Shown here: positions 6,969 through 36,311 of the stretch, piece after piece
Position numbering within the stretch: the first letter of the stretch is position 1
Layout of the letters: every line of letters starts with the position of its first letter
Source of the DNA: Perkinsus chesapeaki
Lineage: Eukaryota > Perkinsozoa > Perkinsida > Perkinsidae
Assembly: GCA_013115145.1 (NCBI GenBank)
Contig: JAAPAO010000352.1
Span: 1 to 37,118 of the forward strand
Direction of reading: 5' to 3'
DNA length: 37,118 nt
The notes under the pieces: generated by a model
Seen by the model: the letters and a program-made list of their open reading frames with translations, nothing else
Databases searched by the model: none
What the model was told of the DNA's origin: nothing
Position numbers and translations under genes: made by a program

Positions 6969-8903
6969 TTAAGCAGTAGTCTCGGTGGCAGACTTGGGCA
7001 GCTCTACAATCTTACCAATAGCAATAGTTTTACCTAATAAAAGCGTAATTATAACAAAGATACCTATCCTACCTTCATCTCGGAGAGTGAAACGACCAAG
7101 TTGAGGAGTGTGCTTGAATGTATCCACGCACACCTTATTGGTGGTCTCGATGACACCTGAATTAAATGAGGGAAGAATGATAAGTGATGGCTGAGCTACA
7201 TAGGAGCATCTGGCCAGTCTTGGCGAATCGAGGACGCTTTTGTTTAGTCTTCTTTTGCTTATCAACACACTAAAAAGGTCATATTATTCATAGTAAAACA
7301 GCTTGTTGATTTTACCTCTAACAACTTTGTGATGGTACATTCCTCAATGGCGGTATGGACGTGAAGAACGGCAGTGTAACCGATTGTAATGATTGGTCTG
7401 TTGGATAAATTAGCCAAGCAATGATTTAGAGTACTTGCACTACTTGTGCTCTAGAAGATCAGTGATGACAAGCTGAGCTTGGAACTTCTGGACTACTGGG
7501 CAAGGATTCTCGATAGCAGAGAGGACGAAACCTACGAAGAGTATGATAGCTAGAGGTGTCAGAAAAATGCTACCCTTTTGAACCTGCTCCTCGTCGACAT
7601 TCTTCAACTTGAGCCTCACATCCTCACCTATTAAATGACAAATGCTTTAATGAGGCGTTTGGAGACATTACCGGGATTAGCGTATTTGTATTCATCATCT
7701 TCAATGTAGACGGACTGAATCTCGGTAATTGTTTTATTAGGCAGTATTATACACTGCTGACCTGATAATAGGGAATATTCTGACACCTCTAGCTGCCGTT
7801 TCCTACCAGGACATGCCTTTCCTTGCTCTATCTTTCCCATAGCAATAGTTCCCATATCTCTGTAACCATCAACAATTGGCACACGAAGAGGGTCCACAGC
7901 ATCTCTAATGAGATCATCATCATCACGCCAACACGCCAATCCCTTCCGCTCACCTTGGTGGAGGATTAGCGTTATCCAACACCTTGAAAAGTGTAGGTCC
8001 CTTATACCAATCCGAGCCAGGTGCCTTCGGTGATTCCTTGAGATTCTCTCCTGCGAGCGCCCAACTAATATTTTTCTGACACCTCTAGCTACCTACCCTT
8101 GAGTCCGGAGATAGGCAGGAATTGCACATCATCTTGGCTCTTGACGTTGAAACCGCAGCTCTTGAGGAAAGGAGTAAGCTTGTCAACAATCTGGTCATAA
8201 CGGTCCTTCGACCTGTATTAATACCATATTTCCCTCAACTTTCCTCCTAATATTACCAGTTCACTGTAGGATCGTCCATCTTGTTAACAGTAACAATAAG
8301 CTTATTAACACCCAATGTCTTCGCCAACATAGCATGCTCTCGTGTCTGGCCGCCTTTATCAAATCCAGTCTCAAATTCACCTAACTTCGCCGTCACTTCC
8401 CTCCCCACCACCCAGCCTACCCTTTCTTGCTGATATCATCAACACACCAATGTCGGCCTGTGCTGCACCAGATATCATATTAGGAACGTAGTTTTTATGA
8501 CCCGGGGCGTCCAATATAGTAAAGCGCCTGTGTGGCGTCTCGAAATGCGCCCGACCAACCTACCCAACCAATTGCTGCTAATCTCCCATTGGCACGTATC
8601 CCACCTCAACAGTGATGCCCTTCGCCCTCTCCTCCTCGTTGGTATCCATAATATAGGCAAGGAACCACGACTCACGATTCTTATCTTTGGCTTCTCGCTC
8701 GAACTTCTCAATAGTACGGTTGTCCACCAAACCTAAACCCGTCCATACAAGCCCTCCTGCTGTCGCCAAGCCTCACCGGAAAGATACATAATATTTCCGC
8801 AAGTGGTGGATTTGCCAGCATCGACATGACCGATGAACACGAGGTTGAGATGAGGCCTCGGATCAGGCTCCCTCAGATTACTCTGGTTATCAGACGACGA
8901 CAT
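6969..8903 (-). CDS. eRF3: Eukaryotic release factor 3 (eRF3/GSPT-type GTPase)
   Basis: Translation termination GTPase that works with eRF1. The start used is the ATG at 8901-8903, followed by a short N-terminus and [20 protein letters not shown] (P-loop GHVDAGKS). Then come switch [13 protein letters not shown]3 [12 protein letters not shown] and G4 [10 protein letters not shown]. Domains 2 and 3 follow ([20 protein letters not shown], later [20 protein letters not shown]) and the end is [19 protein letters not shown]. Gly-His and C-terminal features fit eRF3 better than EF-1A or HBS1. The long N-terminal extension usual for eRF3 is missing or lies in an unseen upstream exon. At least 13 introns of about 38-60 nt were placed; three carry family A and one family B. 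It is co-oriented with the hydrolase and eIF4G genes. Confidence 0.92.
7532..7573 (-). repeat. eRF3 intron with family A element (inverted copy)
   Basis: A 42-nt intron between exon pieces EEQVQKG and FVLSAIENP. In the sense strand it begins GTAGCATTTTTCTGACACC and ends CGTAG. It carries the family A core (7547-7568 on the plus strand, TAGCTAGAGGTGTCAGAAAA) in the orientation opposite to the two other eRF3 copies. Confidence 0.85.
7762..7806 (-). repeat. eRF3 intron with family A element
   Basis: A 45-nt intron between GKACPG and [10 protein letters not shown]. The sense strand contains CAGCTAGAGGTGTCAGAATA followed by TTC. The core is the same as in the introns at 8051-8096 and, inverted, 7532-7573, while the surrounding exons are unrelated to each other. 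Confidence 0.85.
8051..8096 (-). repeat. eRF3 intron with family A element
   Basis: A 46-nt intron between FLPISGLKG and [10 protein letters not shown]. The sense strand begins GTAGGTAGCTAGAGGTGTCA and continues GAAAAATATT. It shares at least 20 nt with the inverted copy at 7532-7573. Confidence 0.85.
8213..8256 (-). repeat. eRF3 intron with family B element (nearly whole intron)
   Basis: A 44-nt intron between KMDDPTVNW and SKDRYDQIV. The sense strand reads GTAATATTAGGAGG, then AAGTTGAGGGAAATATGGTA, then TTAATACAG. Its reverse complement aligns over about 35 nt with the eIF4G element at 12907-12974, so nearly the whole intron is element. Confidence 0.85.
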
Positions 8904-9234
8904 CAGAATAAAACACCGCTAGACGGAGGAGAAGGGAGGGGAGAGGCGTTAAGGCATCCCGGTTGCAGACAAGACAAAATCGATCAGAATGGCGAGCGCG
9001 ACTGTCGCAGATCAGAAGGCACAGGTTCGATCCGCGGCGAGAGTATTTCCCGACTTTAAACGCAATAGTTTTGATATTATTGTATTTTTCCTTTCTTTAT
9101 GAAATTGAGCGAACTACTTCGCCACAAAGGACATTGGCATTATCAACAGAGATTGTACAGGGCGGAAAGTACTAGTAAAGTAGAACGAAAATTGATTGGA
9201 TAAATTGTTGATTATTTATATAACTACAACAACA

Positions 9235-12200
9235 CTAAGAGGAATCCGGAGCGGTCGTAGAGCCAACTGTTGATGATGGGCTCTTAGGCTCATCATCTTC
9301 ATTAACAGGACGACAAGAGATATCATAAAAGAAATGAGCGATCTCCTTGGTAGCTGGACGGGAGTCTTGCCAACCAACCCATGCGGGGGGCATACCAACA
9401 AAAGCATGTCGTGAATTAGGATATATCTGAATAACAACAACAACTAGGGGATATGTTAACATGACGTGCTGCTGCTGCAACCAGTTAGTATTGATACTCC
9501 TTCCTATGGAACGCTGCCCTCTGCCAAGTGATTTAATTGCGTTGACCGTGTAAAGTAATACTCAGTTTTATCAGCATGCATAACTTATGGGAATGTGATA
9601 TGGTAAATAATAAAATTTGATGATTGTACTAGCCGATAATGGATTTTAATAATCATCTAATATCTTACCAAGTTTCCATGTCATACAGGATCTAATGCGT
9701 TAACCAGACATTGTCACACACAAAGCGGCAACTAAACCGCCGTTTGGTCCAAACGTCGAAATATAATGGAAATGAGTACAAGTGTATATCAATTGGAAAT
9801 GAGATAGAGAGGCTTACTTTCATAGTAACTCGAGCTCCACGTTTGCGGAGATACTCATAAGTAGCCTTGGTGCTGTTAACAAGGATATCTTTACCACCGC
9901 ATTGCAGGTTTATAGGAGGAAGACTCCAAGCTGCTCTGGGAGGCATCTTTTTGATAGCATCCAGGAATTGTGTCGGCTGTCCCTTTTTTAAGTTGGGGTT
10001 ACCAGCGTACCTATTATCAAATAATACCATGGTATAACAGGTTCATCCAACCACATCACAGGAATATACCAAAAAAAGCCCTTATGCAGATATACAATAT
10101 AAAGTAGACAATCATATATACTATTTTATACCAATATTAAATTAATGATTGTCCTCAATGGTGTGGATACTTAATTCCTTTATATGGTCATCTCCTTACA
10201 TTCTCATCGACGCTTCAATGGCGAACTCGCTTATTGCTTGTTCATTAGCCGATATCGACTTGACTCGTCCACAGTGTGTGGCATGCCAAGAGTGAGCATC
10301 CAATACACCGTACCTGCCAATAGCCAACTCACTGATAATACCACCTTCCTCCGGCGGCGCTTACAACTAAATGCGAAATCTGATATGAATCAGATAAGAG
10401 ATAAACTATAATAAGATATAGAAATAGATCTAGAGCATTTTCCGTAGATTCGAGTCATATTGTTTTTGACACTAACAAAGTAACAGATAAAACAAAACCG
10501 ATAAGTATTGCGAGAAAGCCAGGAAAGATTAATTACTATAATTAGACAGCTACTATGAAATGCTGTAAATGGTGGATTCCTATTTATTACGGACATGGAG
10601 AAGAGTCACATAAGGAAGGTATCCCAAGAAGGAGGTCACAAGCTGCTTTACTTACACAGATGCAACACCAAGTATGTGTGGGAGCTGTGATGGATGAATA
10701 GGAGAATAACAACAACCACAAGAGAGCTCCGGCATATCTGAAAAAGGGTGAAGACACGATAATGAGGGTTATGGTACCGAAGCCTTCTGAAGCCCACAGT
10801 GTAGCCATCAATGCTAATGAAGCGCCGGCACTGTCACCCATTATACATATATTATCGAAACCTGAAAGAATACCCAGAAGAGTTGTAGGAAATATGGTAT
10901 GAAAGGCGGGTGTAAGTCCTATCTAAATCAAAGCTTGATCGAATAGCATAGTTCCACTCATCGAACAAGTTGGATTCTTCTGTTTTTTTCTGTCTTATGG
11001 TCATTAGCGTGTGTTAGCCGTGGCTCATATCGAGTCCCGAATCGCTGTAGCCTATCATGAGTTTGATTGGTTTGCACTGATTGGATATTTCATGCCTGTG
11101 TCGGATAATTGATTTCTGCGCAGAAGATTCTTTTGGATTAGCGCGCACCCGCGGATATTGGAAAGTAGGCTATCGGATATTTGAGATGCACGAATTGGGC
11201 GGATATTAGAATGACCGTATTCGCAAGATATTGCACATGACCGAATCGGATAAATGGGTGCTGGTCGGAAATAATTGTGACGCGCCGGATATTTGCCTGC
11301 GGTATCTCGGAAATAACAGTGCGCATGTCGGAAACATGACCGGGAAATGCTGTAGTTTCCGCGAATTACAATATTCAATCATACAATCCAGTTTAGATTA
11401 TCTACGACCTATATCACGTGTGTAAAATGTGAAGGCTTATTCATGTATATAAACGATATACCGTATCCCAGCATATTGTCACAGCGGTTTAGGCCCTCTT
11501 TTACCCAATTGCTCCTTCATGAACTTCATCGCTTGCATTGTCTAAAACAGCATTGCTGATCAGAATCAACTAAGGACACTTACTGATAACAAAGGACATG
11601 GATATGGATGTTCTGGACTGAGAGGATAGTCAATGGAGTATATGGTGAAATTATATGGCGCGCGGGAAAATGCGGTCACACTATGCAGCATAACTGCTGA
11701 ATTGGCAGCCACAAACCCTCCGCCATGAATATATCTGAAATAACATTGATAGTGCTTATAATTTCGCGGCGCGTGACGATATTACAGAATAGGTATGGTT
11801 GCTGCCTCTCCTTCCTGAACGGAATGGGTGGGGCGAATTACGTCGATTGTTTGTCTTTTTTCGGGACCGTAGCGATACCTATTTAGAATACAAGGAATGA
11901 TATAAAAAGGGGGACTATAATATGAAGGAACCTTTCTAGTTCCTCCCAACTATTCCAACATCCGTAGGCTATAACCGCCTCCTTACAGAGACGAGTATAA
12001 AAGGCTTCTCTATGTCAAGAAGTATCTTTTAACCATAATTTCACACGCTAATTTACCTGCCTCGGTACTGCTTTAACTATTTCAGAGTAGCCCACTCCAC
12101 CCCGTTTATATTATTACTCTTTGAAAGTGACGGTACAGTCCTTTGCCGGAGGTATAGCGCCATCCTGCGCTTCTACACCACCAAGACAACCACTAAGTCG

Positions 12201-12667
12201 ACCAGGGAGATGAACATATCTGAAATGCATCCATTATAATAACAACACAGACCAAACAACAGTGATTTTTCAATAATAATAACAATAGCCCTCTTCTTTT
12301 TCTCCTCCGCCTCCTTACTTCATGAGGAAGGGGCCAAAGTTATCCAGTAATATCCTAGTAAAGATAATTATCATATGCCCAATAGGGAGGACCAGACTAT
12401 TCCAAAAGACTCTATTTCGAAGGAAGCCGCAGAGCAACTTCCGTGTGGTGGTCATTTAAGCAGGTCCGTTGAGGACAATACGGTAAAGGAACGTTATTAA
12501 CTACATTAGCAAGCCCGATGCTATTAGTACCTCTGAAATGCCGACCAGAAGGTATCCAAGGAGAACCGCACTATACAGATTATCGCAGTCCCTATTGGGA
12601 TAATTATCCAATTCATAAACCGATCAACGGTTTCTAGATGCCAGAGTGCATCACTAAATGATATCAT
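9235..12667 (-). CDS. GDXG/HSL-type alpha/beta hydrolase with hydrophobic N-terminus
   Basis: Serine esterase or lipase of the hormone-sensitive-lipase family. Joined exons give the oxyanion motif YIHGGGFVAANS, IDYPLSPEHPYP, the nucleophile elbow NICIMGDSAGASLAL, acidic residue in LQCGGKDILVNSTKATYEYL and catalytic His in IYPNSRHAFVG, so the triad is complete. The start ATG at 12665-12667 opens two consecutive, mutually similar hydrophobic exons (12531-12667 and 12319-12421), which suggest an N-terminal membrane anchor. The protein ends in an acidic/Ser/Thr tail (stop 9235-9237). There are about a dozen introns, mostly about 40-60 nt, plus a 643-nt one (10862-11504). Some middle exons (about 9.7-10.4 kb) are less certain. 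The substrate is unknown. Confidence 0.82.
10862..10901 (-). repeat. Family B element at the 3' end of the long hydrolase intron
   Basis: The sense strand reads CATACCATATTTCC, then TACAACTCTTCTGGG, then TATTCTTTCAG. It aligns with the 12907-12974 element right up to the acceptor AG, so here the element supplies the 3' splice site. Confidence 0.7.
11082..11345. repeat. Degenerate periodic array of (C)GGATATT/CGGAAAT words
   Basis: About a dozen related words (TTGGATATT, TCGGATAAT, GCGGATATT, TCGGATATT, TCGGATAAA, CCGGATATT, TCGGAAATA, TCGGAAACA and others) occur on the plus strand at about 11082, 11102, 11153, 11175, 11200, 11224, 11247, 11264, 11287, 11305 and 11329. Spacing is mostly 17-25 bp, close to two helical turns. 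The words between them are not conserved. It lies wholly inside the long hydrolase intron, antisense to that gene. Confidence 0.6.
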
Positions 12668-12683
12668 GATTTCTAATAATATA

Positions 12684-12720
12684 CTAAAACAATCCGCGCT
12701 TCGCTCCGCTGTTATAATAC
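12684..12720 (-). repeat. Short 5' UTR intron with family C core
   Basis: A 37-nt GT...TTTTAG sequence just upstream of the hydrolase ATG. The sense strand is GTATTATAACAGCGGAGCGA followed by AGCGCGGATTGTTTTAG. It shares AGCGGAGCGAAGCG with the ATAD3 intron at 34443-34496 and, inverted, its 12-nt core with the eIF4G intron at 16005-16058. That it is spliced is inferred from its ends only. Confidence 0.6.
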
Positions 12721-12906
12721 AACACATTATCCAATTTAAGAATGTCGATGATGATGATTGTTGTTATTATTATAGAAACAGTACTGCTTGTTGTTGATGC
12801 TCTTGGTGGGGGAGGGACCACTAAAGGCCATTTTAGTAACATTATCGACATTAGAGGAAAGGCTAGTTACCGGCCCAGTCCTCCTATGTGTAATAGAAGA
12901 ATGTAC

Positions 12907-12974
12907 CTGAATAAGAAGGAGAGTTGAGGGAAATATGGTAGTATTAATTATCTATTTACAGTTTAAAGATTAAC
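12907..12974 (-). repeat. Family B element around the apparent eIF4G stop codon
   Basis: From GTTAATC (12974) to TTATTCAG (12907) this looks like an intron and carries the family B sequence TTAATACTACCATATTTCCC then TCAACTCTCCTTCTTATTC. The eIF4G stop TAA at 12963-12965 lies inside it. If spliced, the reading frame continues to 12736 and adds about 57 residues rich in Asn and His. If not, it sits at the start of the 3' UTR. Confidence 0.6.
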
Positions 12975-15900
12975 GTTAAGCCTGTTGGCATATGTAGCCA
13001 CCTTGTCTTCGGTAAAGATATTGTAATCTTGTAAAGTCTTAACCACCTCACCCACGAAGATATCGGCAATGTTAGGGATGTCCAATTTCATATCATCGAT
13101 AATCCTACAACACACTTCACCATCACCACAGTCACTTGAACAGTATCCTACTCGGGGTCCGCGAACTCATCCAAAGCCTTCTCCAAAGCTTCAGTCTCCC
13201 AAGTACCCTTCTTCTCCGAAGAGAACAGCTTGCCCAAAGCCTGACACATCAACAGCAACAATGATGACATAAATACTAATATGAATAACCATCCGAATGA
13301 TAGAAACTCCACCAAACGAATCTGTACTTTAAAAATAGGCACTAGCCGAGGAAATAAACAGACAGCACTTTGTACAGAAATTCGCTAACAGAGCCTATAG
13401 GCTTTGAACACCTACCTTCAAATGAGCCTGTCTTTGCTCCTTCTTTATATCACAACTGGCGCCAATACGATCCAAAAGTATCTTAGTTTGTTCCTCTGGG
13501 GTAGCGCTAATATCGGCAAGCTCCTGTACGGCGTTATCAACCTAACCATCACAACGTTCGTTACAGGACCTCGCCGATGACAACTGTCATCAACGTCCTA
13601 CGTCTAAAGAGGCGCTGAGCTCCTCCAGAGTGCTCTTGACCTGCTTGGCAGGGTCTTCGTGGTCTAAGGGACAATTACCATAAATATGCTATGCAGTCTT
13701 ACGAGAAGGCTTAGACTCGGTGACACTTCTAGAGTCGGAGGAAGGACTAGAAGATCTCTCGGCACCTAAACACACACAAGGAATCGAACCCGGGCCATTT
13801 GAAGCGAAGCGCCGCGCTCTACCGCTGCGCCATTACTTCTGCTAGATAAGTCCTGAGTAGCTCTAGCAGCAACATGTCCCCAAGGAGCTGGAGTGGGACG
13901 AGCCGGTAACGATCCTCGACTGCCAAAAGCTGTGCCTGAATCACCGACGGGATTCATTCGAAATCATACGAAAGTAACATTAGTCCGCAAGCACTTCTCG
14001 GCAATGCTGTGCTTACCGGGTCTCGAAGAATTGGTGGAGGAAAGCCCATGGGGTATGCTGCTCCCCCTCGAGATGGTCCTCTGTAATCCTCCTCCACGTC
14101 TATCAAGCTTACTACTACTGCCAAAGCCTGTACGTGAACGGTTAAGGCCACCTCGACCACCTACAAGGGCGAATCATTCTATCAATGAATTCAATGTCTA
14201 CCATCATTACCACCACTACGGGAGTTCTGACGGCTGAATCGTTCAGTCTCAGCTCTCTCAAGCTCAACTTGACGATGAACCTGAAGATGGAGGATATCTT
14301 AACTGCGGGTATAATATCAGCTTCAGGAAGCAGTAGTAGTATACGGCTTTGTCAACGCATCCTCAAATATGAGCTGCTGTCACTTACAGTCTCATCAGGG
14401 ACTCTCGAAAATGAGCTCTATAAGATAGTAAAAAAGTTTCATAATGTTAACCGAATACAGATAAAGATGTTGGCAGCAGTTGTTCCGGAGTAAGTAGTTC
14501 TCGGTACCCTTGGACCAACTATTATTAGTGTATTTGATAATAATTATCTTGCATCATCGACTACTAGTATTATTACCTATTTCATATTAGTAGTTATAAT
14601 GTTCCATATTATAATATATTAATAATATGAAGCTTTATTTTCACAACGTGTACAATTTCATTTTCTACACTCCACCGCCGCCGCCGACCTCTACAATGTA
14701 TCTTAGCCTACCTCAGAGATGGTAAGAGGGCCATTATCCTTCTTGGGGTCAACCCAGCGATGAGCTCTAAGATCCAGGATATCCTGAACTCGAACCGTGC
14801 AAGATACTCCGAGCTCTCCCTTTTCCTCACCTGGCACATAAATCGTATCCTACTAGAATAATGATCAGCATCCTTGGTAACTTCCTTCAATCTATCAAAC
14901 GCCACAGCAAACCTGCAAAGAGATCATCAACCAATACCACAGCATCCTTCCAAACTGACTCGGTATAATGACTCCATTTGGGGTTGTCAAAAACTGGTCC
15001 AGTCTCTCTCAAGAAAACACACAAGGCTTCGATGCACTCCTCTCTGTACTTTCTCTCCCACATTTGGTTGATCTGACGGAGATGACTATGCAGCAACACA
15101 AGGAGGAAGGGGACAGCATTACACAAACAATGGCGATCTTAGAAGAGATCAACTTCCTTTGGACCAGCTGCGCTACGAACTTGATATTACCGAGCATCCT
15201 TGTCTTGTATCTGATCAGAAGGAAATATGGTATGAATTCATAAGCCATCACCTTACCGTATCTCAGCTTCCTGAAGCTCTTCACCTTGCAATCCACTCTC
15301 AGTAAGCTCCGCTGGAGGGTTGAGGTTCGATTCAAACTCGTGCTGAATGATACCAAACATCTCCCACTACCAACGACTACTACCAACTACTAACTCACTT
15401 GGCACGTATTTAACAAGACGTTTTTAAAGGCCTCCACCTGAGCCTTCCCAGCATCCACATCCTCTAACACTGGCTCTGGACCTAAAGCCAGCATTATCCT
15501 CCCAGTAGTGTACAGCAGCAAAGCTAATAATAGTAAATACCACTGCCGAGTTCGAGAGCGTATGAATTATACTCGTTTATGGACACCACCGCAAACACTC
15601 TCCCAAGCTGGTGGAGTTCTCGACAACTCTCCTACGCATTCCTACTGGAGATCCTCAATTTCAGGACTACCTCATGATTCTGCTTAATATACTTCTCACA
15701 TTTTATCAGGGTTCGGATTGACTCCGGTCAATTCTGACATCATTTACTTTAAAAATATCGAATACTGCTAGTCTCGGTGGAAATATCATTGCCCAACTGA
15801 GGGTGACCTTTGCACTTCCGGCCCCCTCCCCCCTCCTCTGCCCCCCGCCTTACTTTGCTTCAGCCAAATAACCGTTCTTTGGCAGACATCCGCATACATA

Positions 15901-18900
15901 GGAATGAAATGATGCTGCGTGGTGGCCTTTTCAAATAATCGATCAACAAGAGCTTTAATGTGCTCCTGTTTGCATATGCCAGTCTCTGGACTTTGCAATT
16001 GGTTCTGAAAATTGTAAAACATGACACAGAATAAGGGCGGAGCGAAGCTCGACATTACCACTAGCTTATCAAACTTCTCTACAGTCAACTTGTTGAGTAT
16101 AGCAATAATATGCCTCTCGACCTTCTCATCACCAGATTGCTAAGAACACCAGTTTTCATCATCGATAGATCAGTCCGCCTCCTACCTCGAGTTTCAACTT
16201 CTGCTGTGTTGCCCATGAGCTCTCTGAATGCTGCAAAGGCTCCACATACTCATTAGGATCAGCGCGTGGAGGCCTGTCCGAATGACGGCCAGATTTGCCG
16301 CCCTTCCTCCCTAAACCACCACACTCTCTTCCCCCTCCTCCGTCTCTCCCTTACGGCCCTCTTTATGCCTCATCGATCTATGCCTTTCAGCATCCTTCCT
16401 CCAATCCATCCCTTCCTCATCTCCCTTGTGATTCTTCATATGTCCAATCCTGCTACCAACAACAACTCTCCTCCCTACACCCCACACACGGCTACCTAGA
16501 GTTCTTCAGAATCTGTGCCGGTATGTTATGATCGTCGGGTAGCTCCTGGCATTCTGGCAGATCTCTCAATGATCGAAGGAAGTCCAAAGTGTAATGTCTG
16601 AAACAAGGCAAGCACTCAAGGCCCTCGTCGGTCGCTGTGATCAAGCAGTCGCAGGTTCGACTCCCGACTCCGTCATTTCTCCGCATTTTCAGCAAAGAAC
16701 TTTCCCGAGGAAGGCTTCCTTTGCCCCACAAACTGATGAGCTTGTGGGGATGCCTACATTTTGATAAGCCGATCTTCCCCGAGAAATACAAGTCCTACAT
16801 TGTCCTACAAGTTTATATGTTATATTAATAAATAATCTTTCTATTATACCCCATAAGTAAAAGCAGATGTTAACGACGACGACCAAGTTGGCCTTTGGGC
16901 TGTCCCACTTGCCCACATTATTATTACTGATAATCCAGTACAGCATCATAGTTAGGTGTAGCGCTTGGTGTATATCCACCTTCATCTTCGTCATCCTCAT
17001 CCTGCTCCTGCTGCTCCTGCTGCTGCTGCTCTTGCTCCTCCTCCTCCTTATCATACCCTTCCGAGGCAGTGACCTCCTCTTCGTTCTCCTCCCGAGCTGT
17101 CTTCTCCGATTCCTACATTACTTCTTATACTATTTATACCACATTTCTCTCACCTCAGACTCTCGAGCAGCAGTAGCCGCGGCTAGAGCTTCAGCTGAAC
17201 AGCAGCAACAGTTCCCCACATAATCCGTCTCTTCCCCACCTACCCTCAGCAGCAGCAGCCTCTTCCTCAGCCTTCCGTTTAGCTTCTTCCTCTGCCCTCT
17301 TCTCCTTTGCTACCCTCTCTTCCTCCTCAGCCTTCCTAGCGGCCTCTTCAGCAGCAGCCTCCTCAGCAGCAGCAGCAGCCTCCTCCTCAGCAGCAGCAGC
17401 AGCTCGCTCCTCCGCAACCCTCTTAGCCTCTTCTTCTTCAGCCTTCCTAGTTGCCTCTTCCTTCTCCTTGGCAATCCTCTCTTCCTCCTCAGCCTTCTTA
17501 ACTTCCACTTCTTCCTTCTTTGCCTTAGCAGCTGCCAAATCGGCCGCAGCTGTCAATGCGCTTGGGCGCTAAAGATAGCAATTTGCCAACATCAAAGCCC
17601 ATAAACCTTACCCCAGCAGCAGCAGCGGTGGTGGTGCTCTCAGTGACAGTCTTGTCCGCCTAAACAAAGTTATCACTGACCATTTCCCATGCTACCTACC
17701 GGCTTCGTAACAGGGGTCCGCGACGCCCTGGCCGCCCATGCACCCTTCAGCTTCCTCGGTGACACAGGAGGGCTCGCCGGAGCTGTCCCCTCCTCCTCCT
17801 CCACAGCGGGAGCGCTGTGCTTGGGCAAAGTAGGCGAAGGTGTAGCAACAACTGTCCTAGGTGTGGGCATGCCCGAAGCTGGGGTTCTCTTAGGGGTAGG
17901 GTGAGCGGCCACAACAGGCGTGTGAGATTTAGCAGTCATAAGGGTTGGCTTTGTAGTGACAACTAAAGGTGATGTAACACCGATGGCGGTCGAGGGGGCA
18001 GTAAGGTGATGCTGCTGCTTAGCCCTATCAGCCCAAGAGGGCCCTTGAGATAATACAGTGGCCACCTTCTGCGGTGCCTAATAGTTGGTACAACAACAAT
18101 AACACAATGCAGCTACCTCTGTAGCTTCCTCCTCGACATGCTGCTGTTCCATAGCTGCTGCTTTCGGGACTTCAACCTACCAGTAACGAAGACTGTCATA
18201 TCTAAGCCGCCCCACTAAAGTCAACCTCACATTAGTCGCCGCCGCCGAGGCCTTGGTTGGAGCAGCTCGTGGCATGACAGTGGGAGTTTTAGCAACAACC
18301 ACCTTAGGGGTGACCTAAGCGTTTACATAACCAGGTTCAGCAAAGCCCAAGATCCCTACCTTCTGCACCGATGCTACTGCCGGTGGCGCTGCTGTTGTTG
18401 TAGTGGCCTTAAGCTTTGCGGCCCAATTCATAACCTAACAAACCATACAAGGACATCTCCCCCCAACACCTTTACCTTCGGCTTCTCCTCTTCTTCTTCC
18501 TTCTTCCTCTCGGCTTCCTTCCTTGCCTCTTCCTCCTCCAAATGCTTTAACTACCACCACCACAACACCATCCCTCCAATCCTTCCCCCACCTGCCCCCT
18601 TACCGCCTCCTTATCAAGCTTCTTACCAGCAGCTGCTATGGCTGCTGATACCGCCAATGACGGCCCAGATAAATCAATCTTCTCTGGCTCTTTCTTTTCA
18701 GGAGTAACGCTCTTCGTTGGGGTCGTACGACCATTGGCGCTGCCATAAGCGGCTCCCTTGCCCTCAGCAGCTCCCTTGGCGGCACCCTAAATCGCACTTC
18801 CCCTCTACTTCTATTATACAGTAATATTACCTTCCCTCCTTTACCTTTACCAAAACCCTTGCCCCCCTTAACGCCTTTACCAGTAGGCGTCCTTGGCCCC

Positions 18901-19740
18901 CGCAGGTTCGGGTTTTTACGGCCACTCTAATCAAGTGGGTTGAAATTGTAATAATACCGTATTTCCGTCAAATCCTACTTGAGGGTGATGCTGCTGTGGT
19001 CCACCAGCAGCGGCTTGCATGTCTCCAGCGTTACCAGGTACCATCTGACCGAGAGTCTGCATCTCACCAGTTTGAGGGTTGTAGTAAGTTCCCATCTGAG
19101 AGAGTCCATTGACAGAAATAAGGTCAATGCCGCTTACGGGAATAAACTGCTGTTGGTTCATATAATTCACCACATAGGCACCATGAGGAACGTATCTACA
19201 AATACGTCAGATGCGCACTCGACCTTAAGATACGCCTACCCAGGGTATGCAATTAAGTTGGCAGCGGCCATACCGTATTGATATCTAAATCGACGCTTTG
19301 CAGAGAGAGCGGTATAAGAACGAACGCCTCACCCCATTGAGAAGTCCTGCTGCTGCTGTTGTTGCTGCGCTTCCCAGCCGCCCTTTGCTCCAGTAGAAGG
19401 CAAGAGACCATTCTGTTTATTGGACGGTGATGCACCTATCAACAACCACTACGATTAGAGGGAAATACGGTATAATTACCAGACTGGCTGTTTGCACTCT
19501 GGGATGGCCGTCGCTGCTGATCTGTCGGTGTAGAGGTTGAGGATCGATTCTCCGAGTCTCCTTGTACCGTATTTGCTGTTGTTGATGTTGTTGACGTTAA
19601 ATTGTTGTTGGCCACTGCTGCTGCAGTATAGGACCCTAAAACGGCTTAACGTAATCGATAATGGGAGAGAGGAGGCTACCAGGGACAAACTCTGAAGCGT
19701 TCGGATTGAGCTTGCTCGTTGGAGAGGTTTGAGTGGCCAT
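12963..19740 (-). CDS. eIF4G-like translation initiation scaffold
   Basis: The start ATG is at 19738-19740. Parts in order: PAM2-like motif SKLNPNASEFVPG (residues about 9-21); Asn/Ser/Gln-rich region; Gly/Lys-rich RGPRTPTGKGVKGG; long Lys/Glu/Ala coiled coil (about 17.2-17.6 kb); acidic Gln-rich stretch; YTLDFLRSL, fitting the eIF4E-binding YxxxxL motif; MIF4G domain (HIIAILNKLTVEKFDKLV, HIKALVDRLFEKATTQHHFI, then YKTRMLGNIKFVAQLVQ and ILDLRAHRWVDPKKDNGPLT); Arg/Gly/Ser-rich linker (GGRGGLNRSRTGFGSSSKL); C-terminal MA3-like region (LDIPNIADIFVGEVVKTLQD). It would bridge eIF4E, eIF4A and, through PAM2, poly(A)-binding protein. More than 20 short introns carry family B and C elements and a tRNA-like intron; one of about 440 nt is AT-rich (about 14270-14711). 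The C-terminus may extend to 12736. Confidence 0.88.
13766..13836 (-). repeat. 71-nt eIF4G intron made of tRNA-like sequence
   Basis: The intron GTAATGG...GTTTAG lies between coding pieces of the linker near MA3. The sense strand contains a perfect Pol III A box (TGGCGCAGCGG), a 4-bp D stem GCGC/GCGC and a B box (GGTTCGATTCC), 44 nt from A-box start to the T loop (46 in a standard tRNA). The anticodon, T and acceptor stems do not pair well, so it is not a working tRNA. It looks like a tRNA or tRNA-derived SINE fragment now used as an intron. Confidence 0.65.
15211..15256 (-). repeat. eIF4G intron with family B core
   Basis: A 46-nt intron (GTAAGGTGATG...CTGATCAG) joins the MIF4G pieces EIR and YKTRMLGNIKF. 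The sense strand contains TTCATACCATATTTCCTTCT, the orientation opposite to the eRF3 copy at 8213-8256. Confidence 0.8.
16005..16058 (-). repeat. eIF4G intron with family C core (inverted)
   Basis: A 54-nt intron GTAATGTCGAGC...TTTTCAG between VEKFDKLV and NQLQSPETGI in the MIF4G domain. It contains GCTTCGCTCCGC, the reverse complement of the core in the introns at 12684-12720 and 34443-34496. Confidence 0.75.
17113..17153 (-). repeat. eIF4G intron with diverged family B element
   Basis: A 41-nt intron before ESEKTAREENEEE. The sense strand has GAGAGAAATGTGGTATAAAT, differing at only a few positions from the eRF3 copy GAGGGAAATATGGTATTAAT. Confidence 0.65.
18927..18978 (-). repeat. eIF4G intron with family B core
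   Basis: A 52-nt intron joins QQHHPQ to SGRKNPNLRG. The sense strand contains TTGACGGAAATACGGTATTA, the same orientation as the eRF3 copy. Confidence 0.8.
19436..19479 (-). repeat. eIF4G intron with family B core (inverted)
   Basis: A 44-nt intron that starts GTAATTATACCGTATTTCCC and ends TTGATAG, between SQSANSQS and GASPSNKQN. The element abuts the 5' splice site here, whereas in the eRF3 copy the same end abuts the 3' splice site, as expected for an inverted insertion. Confidence 0.85.
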
Positions 19741-24479: not shown

Positions 24480-25176
24480 GATACTCGTCCAGAACTGAGA
24501 TCATTTGGAGTAGCAGGCACTGTGCGACAGAAGAAGACCCGGGTGAACGAATCGAGATTGGTGAAGTACTTGAAGGACAGGATGCATCTGGTGAGCGCAG
24601 GGCGTGAATCACACCGTTTGAGGTATCCAGGCTACGGGAGGACGAGATTCTTGCATTCCTGGCACGAAAACGCGGGGCGCCCACAAACCGTGGGCCACAA
24701 TACAACGCTTACTTTCTGAGCGGCTCAGACAAGTATGAGCAATTACAACTGACCCGGTTGGAACCTACCAATTGGACGCGCAATGTATGGCAAAGTTATG
24801 TAATTGGAATGACAGCAGGAATCAAATTTTGAACAGTTAACTCTTTTACCTGGCTAGTTAGGGCTGAAAAGAGAATTTTCAGTTTCAAACACTCGACATT
24901 CCTGACCTACCGAAGGTCGGCCTACCAGGCTATTCATAGTCCAGCACACAAAAACTGTCCCCGTCTGGGAAACACTTCAGAATGGATAAAAGCCGATACA
25001 ACTAGCCTGAGTAGCACTGTTTCACTAACCCTCTAGTTAGAAGTCGGCTTTCCAATAAACTCGACTTAAAAGTTCGCGCATTTGTGGAAACATCTTGGCA
25101 CGATCACCGTGGTCACCTGTGTGCACGCGTGCAACTTGCGCAGAAATACTACCACATTTCCGTCGCATCGCGCCTG

Positions 25177-25418
25177 CAATAAGGCGTCTCCGTGCTATTA
25201 ATGTATGTCGACTGTACTCGAACAGGATCACTTATGTAGTGATTTCCTTTCGTTCACAAGAGTACTCTTGACAAAACCCTAAACCGTGATGAGGAGTTGT
25301 ATACCTTTCCACCCTAATGGAGGTTTAGTCAATACAATAATGTATTCGACTTCGATGATCCATTTACTCTTTTAAGAGTTATTGGGTGTGGGTATTGCTG
25401 AGCGGTTTAATTGTCAAC
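25177..25418 (+). repeat. 242-bp dispersed repeat, copy 1
   Basis: From CAATAAGGCG to GCGGTTTAATTGTCAAC. It matches 36070-36311 in the same orientation, the same length with no gaps and 7 mismatches by eye (about 97%). Flanks on both sides are unrelated. No terminal inverted repeats or coding capacity are evident. Confidence 0.9.
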
Positions 25419-26587: not shown

Positions 26588-26690
26588 TCCTCGGCGGCGT
26601 CCAGATGCCCCCACCGGGGTTTGAACCTGCGTGGCATTCCATACGCAAGCGCGCAATTCTAAATTGCGACCAACGCGTTGAGCAAATAGA
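26588..26690 (-). pseudogene. tRNA-Leu(UAG)-like relic
   Basis: The minus strand has an anticodon-like hairpin CGCAATTTAGAATTGCG (loop TTTAGAA, anticodon TAG), a long variable arm TGCGT/ACGCA as in Leu and Ser tRNAs, and a B box GGTTCAAACCC. The T stem has two mismatches and the acceptor stem does not pair, so it is probably a decayed tRNA. It lies just upstream of the COX19 start codon on the opposite strand. Confidence 0.4.
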
Positions 26691-28135: not shown

Positions 28136-29617
28136 ATGGTTTTGGCTGAAAGCTCCTCCTCGGAACAGCAGCAGCAGCAGTCGCCTCAAGTAAGGTCTTG
28201 AGGTGGCCTGAGCAGCAGCACGTGGTGTTTGTCAGATTCCCGGCATGGATACTGTGTCTGGTAGCTCGGCGTCATCAAATGGAAGTATAGAAGGAAGGGA
28301 AAGTGGATCACAGAATGGTAGTAGGATCAGATGGTGGATAGGAATGCGTCGTGATAGGGGGGAATATATCAATATAATTTTAATAAATATATCAATAATA
28401 TTTTACATTGCTTTGGTATGCTGCACTTGCCGCTTGCTCGCCTACTGATAATCTAGCTGCCAGTCTAGTTTCGTCAGTCAGTTAATTTGAGGTGTGAAGC
28501 ACCACCGGCGTCAACGTTGTTCGTGCCATACTGAAACTCAGCTTGTCTTTGTCAATCTTTATTTGGTACTCGCGCCATTAGGCGACCATAGATCTAGTAG
28601 TATTGTTATCGTATATAGTAGGTTCTACTAGCAGAAGGCACACAATAGGAGGAAGTTCCACATCAACTTCGTCTGTCCGAGAGGTTCCGCGAAGGTAATC
28701 CGTGTTGCTGGAATTAGTATCACATTTCCTTCAAATCATCGTCAGGCTTACTACTCTTGACCAGCAATCTGGCATTCGGTACATACCTCTTGGAATTCGG
28801 CATGACAGCTTTGAGGTCGAGCGCCATCAGAGGCTCCTAAAGACCAAGTAGGCCGTTTTAGAATCGATAAAGACACTACGAAGCTGGAAGGTGTCGAGCT
28901 ACTCCAGCACCGAATAGGACGGCTTCGAAAGCCTTCGTGTTTTCTGCCACTTGCCCACTAAGAAATAAGAGTTCCGCACTGCTGATATTGGGGGTTTTAT
29001 GGAATACTATCATAGCTTCCCTAATCGCTGGGAAGCCACTCTCAAGAGCTTTAGAAAGGCGTAGGAACCAACGAAATATCTTTTTAGAGCATTCGAAAAT
29101 AGCAACTATTTCCCTTCGTGGGCCACGCTGTAAGTAAAGACAGCTATTTTGGCGGCTAAGTAGGTATTATACGGAACGGTTCATACTTGTTCGTACTGTC
29201 CTGTTGGATGCCGCCCTTCCCGTAGGTTTTGCCGGTTCGGTCAGAACTGTGAATTCGCTCGAAAGGGGCAGTGCTTCTTCGTACATGCCCCGCAAGAGCT
29301 CAAGTACAGGCCGCCAAGGCCAGATGGATATCCGGTAGGATGTCACGCGCCACGAAATTATCGTGGTTAGTGTTTGTTGTAGCAGGGGGAATCTTAGTTA
29401 AATTTCGTTACGCGGCGCACTGCGAAGATTTCAGGTACGAGATCGTGCTGCCGAAGGGTACGATGATTATGATAATTACTATTACGGTGATGGCGAATAC
29501 TATCCTAATGGACAGTATTACGACAATCCGTCTAACGAAACAGAAGTAGTCGAAGGATACCAACAGCAAGAAGATGGTTATGGATACCAAACTGTTGAGG
29601 TGAAATCGATTGAGTGA
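28136..29617 (+). CDS. Cys-rich protein with CCCH-like spacing, multi-exon
   Basis: The start at 28136 gives MVLAESSSSEQQQQQSPQ and the exon from 28236 IPGMDTVSGSSASSNGSIEG. Later pieces are GGSSTSTSSVREVPRR, then TTLDQQSGIRYIPLGIRHDS followed by FEVERHQRLLKTK. A Cys/His-rich exon near 29180-29330 reads CPVGCRPSRRFCRFGQNCEF then ARKGQCFFVHAPQELKYRPP; its CX5CX7CX3H spacing and the H-A-P-Q-E-L ending recall CCCH RNA-binding zinc fingers. The C-terminus is Tyr/Asp/Gly-rich (YDDYDNYYYGDGEYYPNGQY), stop TGA 29615-29617. The exons between about 28850 and 29160 are not securely joined. Probably RNA-binding, by inference. Confidence 0.55.
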
Positions 29618-35656: not shown

Positions 35657-36069
35657 GGAAGACAAGCCTATCAATGTGGTAACTTGAAAGATATTGTTTA
35701 GTTAATGCCCCGTTCATCGTTATATAGTATTACAAGTTGCTCTGTCATGCCCGCCATTATTGGTGTACACGGAAATTGACTATTGCGTTATTGCGTGCTA
35801 GTAAAAGCTTGTAAAGCGATAGCAGTGCCAGGAGAGACGTTCCTACATAATTTCATACGTTAAATCGGTGACCCACTCAGAGTGCCGGGGATTCTGCGGA
35901 CTGCGAAACTGCACCGGTAGGATCTTGATCCACGCAACTCTCAGCATGGCTACAGATTAAGTGGAACTTAACGCCATTTCCATCCCATCTCATTTCGTCA
36001 AGGAAAACCTGAAGGGGGAGACAAATGATTGTGCAATTTTGCATACCACACTTCCCTCAAATCTCACCC

Positions 36070-36311
36070 CAATAAGGCGCCTCCGTTCTATTAATGTATG
36101 TCGACTGTACTCGAACAGGATCACTCATGTAGTGATTTCCTTTCGTTCACAAGAGTACTCGTGACAAAACCCTAAACCGTGATGAGGAGTTGTATACCTT
36201 TCTACCCTAATGGAGGTTTAGTCAATACAATAATGTATTCGACATCGATGATCCATTTACTCTTTTAAGAGTTATTGGGTGTGGGTATTGCTGAGCGGTT
36301 TAACTGTCAAC
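36070..36311 (+). repeat. 242-bp dispersed repeat, copy 2
   Basis: Same length and orientation as 25177-25418 with 7 mismatches by eye. It begins CAATAAGGCGCCTCC and ends GCGGTTTAACTGTCAAC. The flanks differ from copy 1. About 10.9 kb containing ordinary host genes separates the copies, so they are unlikely to be the LTRs of one element. Confidence 0.9.

Follow-up and report, generated by a model that had tools for sequence, protein, structure and literature searches.

Genes for small nuclear RNAs (snRNAs) are preceded by a proximal or upstream sequence element (PSE/USE), which stands at a fixed position and is bound by SNAPc, as outlined in PMC7884074 and PMC12133305. In nematodes the motif of the PIWI-interacting RNA (piRNA, or 21U-RNA) loci, known as the Ruby motif, is derived from the SNAPc motif of the snRNA genes (Beltran et al. 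2019, PMC6436959). The same source places the Pristionchus piRNAs within introns of active genes and describes a constant spacing between motif and initiation, while more than 15,000 piRNA loci are given for C. elegans (PMC7917550). Repeated sequences inside introns are also described as introners: introner-like elements occur in Micromonas (PMC3879977), and the introners of Amoebophrya, a related alveolate lineage, are repeated, mostly non-canonical introns with inverted repeats and with direct repeats at their boundaries (PMC7789003). Here we analysed 37,118 nucleotides (nt) of the Perkinsus chesapeaki genome (assembly GCA_013115145.1, contig JAAPAO010000352.1, positions 1 to 37,118 of the forward strand; hereafter the window), in which a short word, family B, recurs in both orientations and had been put forward in an original prediction as one element in at least seven introns of three genes. 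We judge that there is about an even chance that family B is a DNA motif of the protein-bound type, a predicted promoter element of the snRNA and small nucleolar RNA (snoRNA) type (consensus TTMATACCRYATTTCCNTCAAATC) that is dispersed in either orientation and often found in ordinary short introns, and not a mobile intron.

Like the PSE/USE, the Perkinsus motif occupies a fixed position, with the RNA start about 56-62 nt downstream of it, and is common to the U3 and U5 genes (PMC7884074, PMC12133305). As at the nematode piRNA loci, which are intronic in Pristionchus (PMC6436959), there are many dispersed copies of a motif that appears to derive from the SNAPc site of snRNA genes, and this PSE-like motif was found in introns and intergenic DNA in both orientations; a start at a predicted distance would correspond to the fixed initiation distance of the nematode loci (PMC6436959). 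Perkinsus differs in being a protist, in having a longer motif (about 29 nt) which is almost the same as the U3/U5 element, and in showing a weak pyrimidine-purine (YR) signal. Near-exact words mark a few hundred places in Perkinsus compared with the more than 15,000 C. elegans loci (PMC7917550), and the small RNAs of the Perkinsus copies are predicted ones. The assembly contains one Piwi-domain match, with an in-frame TAG. Compared with the Amoebophrya introners, the Perkinsus block is shorter than the intron and no end repeats were found, and the introns fit GT-AG (the gene model allowed GT-AG only) while those introners are mostly non-canonical (PMC7789003). In the open-licence literature no paper joining Perkinsus with the proximal sequence element was found, and the papers listed on Perkinsus, introns and snRNA showed nothing alike in their titles or abstract openings.

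Scanning of the window with ATACCRTATTTCC, allowing one mismatch, gave six matches where 0.09 were expected, and none of 100 shuffles got to six. Across the assembly (35.4 Mb in 884 contigs, the window being contig C282) the exact word has 164 copies and the reversed control none, while the degenerate word ATACCNNATTTCCNTC, again with at most one mismatch, gave 470 matches versus 49 for its control. Alignment of 92 exact-core copies yielded the consensus TTMATACCRTATTTCCSTCAAATC, which is informative between about -5 and +23 of the core and carries little beyond these limits except the downstream signals described below. When two core letters (positions 5 and 6) were left free, a purine followed by a pyrimidine (R then Y) was present in 92 among the 100 places listed (AT 41, GT 24, AC 21, GC 6), the remaining variants being AA (5), TA (2) and GA (1). 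The AC type is the core type of U3 and U5 and is included among these genome-wide variants; fetched AC copies (L116, L121, L124, L129 and L130, among 20 AC loci) also fit short introns. The copies are clustered, since the first 100 exact ones formed 15 adjacent pairs less than 5 kb apart versus 2.3 expected; four of these pairs are in the window and one is the pair at L013.

Analysis of the U3 and U5 genes revealed the motif at their 5' side. Twelve U3 matches are present in the assembly and the 5' end was placed in ten of them, L097 and L098 being dropped for want of a placed end. The core starts at -60 to -62 in nine of the ten placed loci, and it is retained at the diverged copies L099 and L100 though the DNA between motif and gene differs. 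The single exception, L096 (C578:4793), matches U3 without carrying the motif and is perhaps a pseudogene. Both U5 genes carry the motif at -56/-57, one with the exact core TTCATACCACATTTCCGTC, and the element of the U5 gene L107 has 18 of 19 letters in common with the intron consensus, while the best upstream match of the U4 gene L109 is weak and lies at -58. TTGTGT occurred within 60 nt upstream of the core in 7 of the 11 U3/U5 genes. The assembly also encodes an exon of SNAPC3, a subunit of the PSE-binding complex (PMC7884074). Its place upstream of both U3 and U5 genes is fixed, which is how a proximal sequence element behaves, and the motif is probably the PSE-like snRNA promoter element of this Perkinsus, with SNAPc as its putative ligand. 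That the word in the introns is this same motif is very likely. The copies upstream of the two U3 genes of the window (25149 and 36043), as well as those of U5 elsewhere, had been missed by the original prediction.

Several other features of these RNA genes were observed. Partial or diverged U3 matches include C285:34561 and C827:9177 besides L096. A U2 gene, a sub-threshold U4 and a U5 gene lie within 5 kb at C487:17856-22687, and a second U5/U4 pair lies on C665:92074-92435. The branch-site-pairing region of the U2 gene L089 reads GTGTATGTATCTG and is seemingly one base longer than the usual form, GTGTAGTATCTG; upstream of this gene only a partial reversed match, GGCGGAAATAC, was present.

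Perkinsus introns are described in PMC3101222 as GT-AG introns of 39-1622 nt, mostly shorter than 100 nt, and our eIF4G model, in which 27 of the 38 introns measure 39-60 nt, is in line with these sizes. A small gene finder, restricted to GT-AG introns and of low power on 600-nt loci, was built and trained on the fetched loci; an earlier setting which overcalled introns was discarded. Free gene calling assigned 31 of 92 copies to introns, 10 to exons and 51 to intergenic DNA, introns making up 15% of the sequence. When an intron was forced over the site, the model preferred it anyway for 32 of the 92 copies versus 54 of 368 random positions. For forced introns of 38-54 nt the counts were 30/92 and 40/368 (p 1.4e-6), and introns of this size were preferred outright in 17/92 and 10/368, respectively (p 5e-7). 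The comparison of intronic with intergenic density which the original prediction had proposed could be made approximately: 32/92 copies versus 54/368 random positions are in model-preferred introns, and 51 of the 92 copies are intergenic in a low-powered model. Motif copies are enriched in short introns, the intronic share of all copies being uncertain.

Peptides from 30 of the 92 forced introns, chosen by hand and mostly the longer ones, were compared with Pfam; for 22 the search returned a family (E <= 0.01), and 15 of these exceeded the curated cut-off. The match crosses the motif intron, over cut-off, in L011 (EF-hand pair), L055 (TPR), L085 (CDC50) and eIF4G, where the MIF4G match runs across the junction of intron 15211-15256; the coatomer gamma match of L064 does so under cut-off (E 7e-4), and the other 17 of the 22 matches show no clear crossing. 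In short introns the distance between donor and motif is about 2 to 32 nt, and among 41 copies ATACC is on the sense strand in 26 and on the antisense strand in 15 (p = 0.12).

If the intron copies are promoters, a start 43-47 nt after the core end was expected before testing. The later composition tests used 119 copies and left out L125, a locus fetched twice, together with both U3 promoters present in the window. The GC content of these copies was 0.354 at +27-33, 0.519 at +33-43 and 0.393 at +48-58, and in the same windows the 11 U3/U5 genes had 0.23, 0.76 and 0.26. Among windows of 8, 10 or 12 nt between -195 and +215, none is lower than that at +48 (z about -4), and for this one window none of 5000 random placements was as low; the composition extremes listed are all downstream, on the strand that is transcribed at U3/U5. 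Copies in sense with the modelled gene gave 0.347/0.529/0.386 (n=59) and antisense copies 0.361/0.510/0.400 (n=60), while the +48-58 value was 0.394 inside and 0.393 outside confident short introns. As the values are alike in both gene orientations, and the last one also across short-intron status, the layout is not tied to gene structure. A reading of the 'second box' as an antisense 5' splice site was rejected as at best partial, the composition being the same in both gene orientations.

Short words gave similar indications. From +31, [AT]A[CG][CG]C is found in 9 of the 11 U3/U5 genes, and it starts at +31 in 7 of the 119 intron copies, the mean per position being 0.76 and the next-highest count 4. 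AGG at +32 is present in 7 of the 11 genes and AGG[CGA] at the same place in 8 of the 119 copies (mean 1.35). AAGG at +31 was seen in three copies (mean 0.59, with other positions reaching 3 or 4) and TAAGG at +30 in none. Among 213 positions, YRNT peaks at +57 (0.14 versus 0.073). It is partly shown, on statistical grounds, that the downstream layout of U3/U5 recurs in weakened form on the same strand of the intron copies; the signals are modest.

A number of observations weigh against a promoter element with output from introns. The sub-threshold U4 locus L110 has its motif match at -33, no U6 gene was found when the assembly was searched, and, unlike a PSE/USE, the motif was not found at U2 (0/1) or at the SL (spliced-leader) RNA places (0/4), so that SL RNA genes were rejected as carriers. 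In some introns a CAG acceptor lies inside the motif, which then overlaps the splice acceptor. A clear start-site signal did not emerge when composition was first tested position by position. The YR excess at +57 stems from the copies outside confident short introns (0.38, n=85) and is not seen in those inside (0.24, n=34), and YR is missing at exactly +57 from 9 of the 11 U3/U5 genes. The GC windows and [AT]A[CG][CG]C were picked after looking at the intron copies, 12 words having been tried, and the 11 U3/U5 genes are not independent, the U3 genes being mutually related. No Rfam RNA was detected near the copies at the thresholds used (20 long loci and 20 AC loci); the hairpin at L127 gave weak, sub-threshold Rfam matches of the miRNA kind (two to MIR8001; E 0.027, far below cut-off). 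Neither a C/D box nor a T-run terminator nor TTGTGT was enriched around the copies. Finally, core and flank variants are partly linked, CG at +15/+16 being present in 8/25 AC-core, 3/39 GT-core and 1/56 AT-core copies, which hints at lineage structure and at copying.

With these points weighed, the intron copies seem somewhat better described as promoter-like units than as bare sites. At intron copies, as at U3 and U5, the motif would be bound by SNAPc or a relative, the bound complex would recruit a polymerase, and a short, sequence-diverse noncoding RNA would start about 57 nt downstream, much as at the nematode piRNA loci; relative to the host gene this RNA would be either sense or antisense. 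Transcription of the intron copies into small RNAs is put forward tentatively. A more doubtful proposal is that Perkinsus evolved intron-embedded mini-promoters of the snRNA type genome-wide, independently of nematodes, each of which would yield a short, diverse RNA about 57 nt downstream.

The strongest competing explanation, itself unlikely, is that the intron sites are bound by the PSE-binding factor, or by a relative that shares its specificity, and act in enhancer function, pausing or chromatin organisation without any promoter output. The identity of the motif with that of the U3/U5 promoters fits this, and the missing Rfam RNA and terminator signals speak for it, whereas the directional downstream composition matching the U3/U5 layout speaks for promoter-like units.

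The original prediction implied that a short DNA inserts either way and creates or becomes a spliceable intron, as introners do, which we regard as rather improbable. Both orientations, the clustering, the linked core and flank variants and the CAG acceptors within the motif of some introns are as expected of such an element, and so are two near-perfect head-to-head pairs (L013 and L127) that resemble a tiny inverted-repeat element. The 123 rows of fetched copies correspond to 121 distinct sites, as two sites were fetched twice. The shared block is about 29 nt (about -6..+23 of the core) and is shorter than the introns; outside -9..+24 in-register identity equals shifted-register identity over the 121 sites, so no flanks are shared, and similarity between genes does not extend to whole introns or splice sites. 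No near-identical copies were found among the 121 sites. Local copies (closer than 15 kb) are no more alike than those on different contigs (51 versus 7168 pairs, p = 0.48), and local copying, suggested by the likeness of 8221 and 12929, was rejected as not significant among the 51 local pairs. The target-site duplications that should mark insertions gave no signal at the ends of the motif block, on which, and not on the intron ends, the test was anchored (the best z of 3780 tests was 3.7, and the null reached 4.2). No paralogous empty site was available, as the eIF4G region has no second copy in the assembly save one 48-nt match elsewhere. The motif-bearing eIF4G introns are, by eye, within the size range of the other introns of that gene, and the U3 and U5 genes have the motif at a constant upstream position. 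With a variable place in short introns, no duplication and no shared flanks, the introner reading, and with it the mobile mechanism, is unsupported.

An old, decayed family of miniature inverted-repeat transposable elements (MITEs), one end of which resembles an snRNA promoter by chance, is very improbable. The inverted pairs and the subfamily-like variants would suit it. The two pairs at L013 (3613-3641) and L127 (about 220-282) are near-perfect palindromes with arms differing only at the tolerant R/Y positions. Head-to-head pairs with a partner within 60 nt were only these two, or 4 of the 123 fetched rows, so paired inverted copies are not the repeating unit, as they would be in a transposon with terminal inverted repeats. 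The U5 element of L107 fits the intron consensus as given above, and distinct sites share no flanks. Core changes in 175 kb are concentrated at positions 0, 8 and 12 (12/15, ten sites counted), a weak argument against MITEs because two of the ten sites are the U3 promoters of the window and because an A-to-C change at position 0 can be favoured, as it creates an AG acceptor in antisense copies. A splicing signal acting at the RNA level, by branch-site, pyrimidine-tract or enhancer function, is the least probable of all, for although the motif is enriched in introns and supplies the acceptor in some copies, it occurs in both orientations (26 versus 15), at variable spacing to the splice sites and also upstream of U3 and U5.

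Positions of the motif copies and of the genes to which they belong in the window are given in the table.

Table. Motif copies, motif-bearing introns and U3 genes in the window
Feature	Position	Strand	Basis
Motif core (ATACC strand) in eRF3 intron; gene on minus strand, motif antisense	8221..8233	+	Exact word
44-nt GT-AG eRF3 intron containing the motif	8213..8256	-	eRF3 protein comparison
Motif core near alpha/beta-hydrolase-like coding region (by eye); no good intron model	10888..10900	-	Exact word
Motif core with one change, CTACCATATTTCC (CTACC...), eIF4G, gene sense	12929..12941	-	Word scan
Motif core in eIF4G intron 15211-15256, gene sense	15221..15233	-	Exact word; modelled intron
Motif core variant ATACCACATTTCT in eIF4G intron 17113-17153, antisense	17136..17148	+	Intron exactly as modelled
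Motif core in eIF4G intron, probably 18927-18978 (by eye), antisense	18954..18966	+	Exact word
Motif core in eIF4G intron 19436-19479, gene sense	19461..19473	-	Exact word; intron exactly as modelled
Motif core CTACCACATTTCC, about 60 nt upstream of U3 copy 1, promoter element	25149..25161	+	Word scan; place relative to U3 5' end
U3 snoRNA gene, copy 1	25208..25407	+	Rfam RF01848, E 2.1e-20
Weaker motif copy GTATCACATTTCCttcaaatcat, candidate for an intron copy	28717..28729	+	Word scan
Motif core ATACCACACTTCC, about 60 nt upstream of U3 copy 2, promoter element	36043..36055	+	Word scan; place relative to U3 5' end
U3 snoRNA gene, copy 2	36101..36300	+	Rfam RF01848, E 2.5e-18

Occurrence in both orientations and in many introns, as originally predicted, held in the window and in the copies fetched elsewhere. 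Five of the seven copies cited there carry the exact word, that at 12929 has one change, and ATACCACATTTCT (17136-17148) is two positions off the word as written. The introns proposed for them fared unequally. Cutting out 8213-8256 restores PTVNW|SKDRYDQ, as in P. marinus eRF3, to which the window protein is 86% identical over its full length; this intron is well supported, 15211-15256 is supported by MIF4G, and 17113-17153 and 19436-19479 are exact in the model. Intron 18927-18978 is plausible by eye, while the gene model merges it into a longer intron, 18787-18978. For the intron given as 12907-12974, a 53-nt intron 12907-12959 is probable by eye and 12907-13001 is modelled. For the hydrolase copy (10862-10901), whose intron stays a candidate, no convincing model was obtained. 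TTAATAC was not confirmed as an element end shared between 3' and 5' splice sites, as the eRF3 intron ends ...GGTATTAATACAG and 19436-19479 begins GTAATTATACC, only the AT-rich side being common, and the diverged copy suspected near 18.8 kb (18787-18830) showed no match with up to two changes and none by eye.

Other repeats were also observed in the window. The family A word AGCTAGAGGTGTCAGA lies in three eRF3 introns by eye (7548-7563, 7779-7794 and 8075-8090), two one way and one reversed, and nowhere outside the eRF3 region in the 175 kb checked; perhaps it was copied between introns of one gene. Another word, GCGGAGCGAAGC/GCTTCGCTCCGC, has ten copies in 175 kb (L009-L028 and the window). 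tRNA-like stretches with a B-box-like sequence were seen by eye at 13747-13822, 16598-16757 and about 26600-26680, two of them within eIF4G introns of the gene model; ARAGORN made no tRNA call in the window.

If the promoter reading is true, recurrence of a word in introns in either orientation would be no sure sign of an introner, the snRNA promoter element of a parasitic alveolate would be identified and would be dispersed widely in protein-coding introns, and the start sites of an undescribed class of small RNAs would be predicted almost to the base. It would then represent a second, independent co-option of the snRNA promoter machinery for dispersed small-RNA genes, an alveolate counterpart of the SNAPc-driven piRNA loci.

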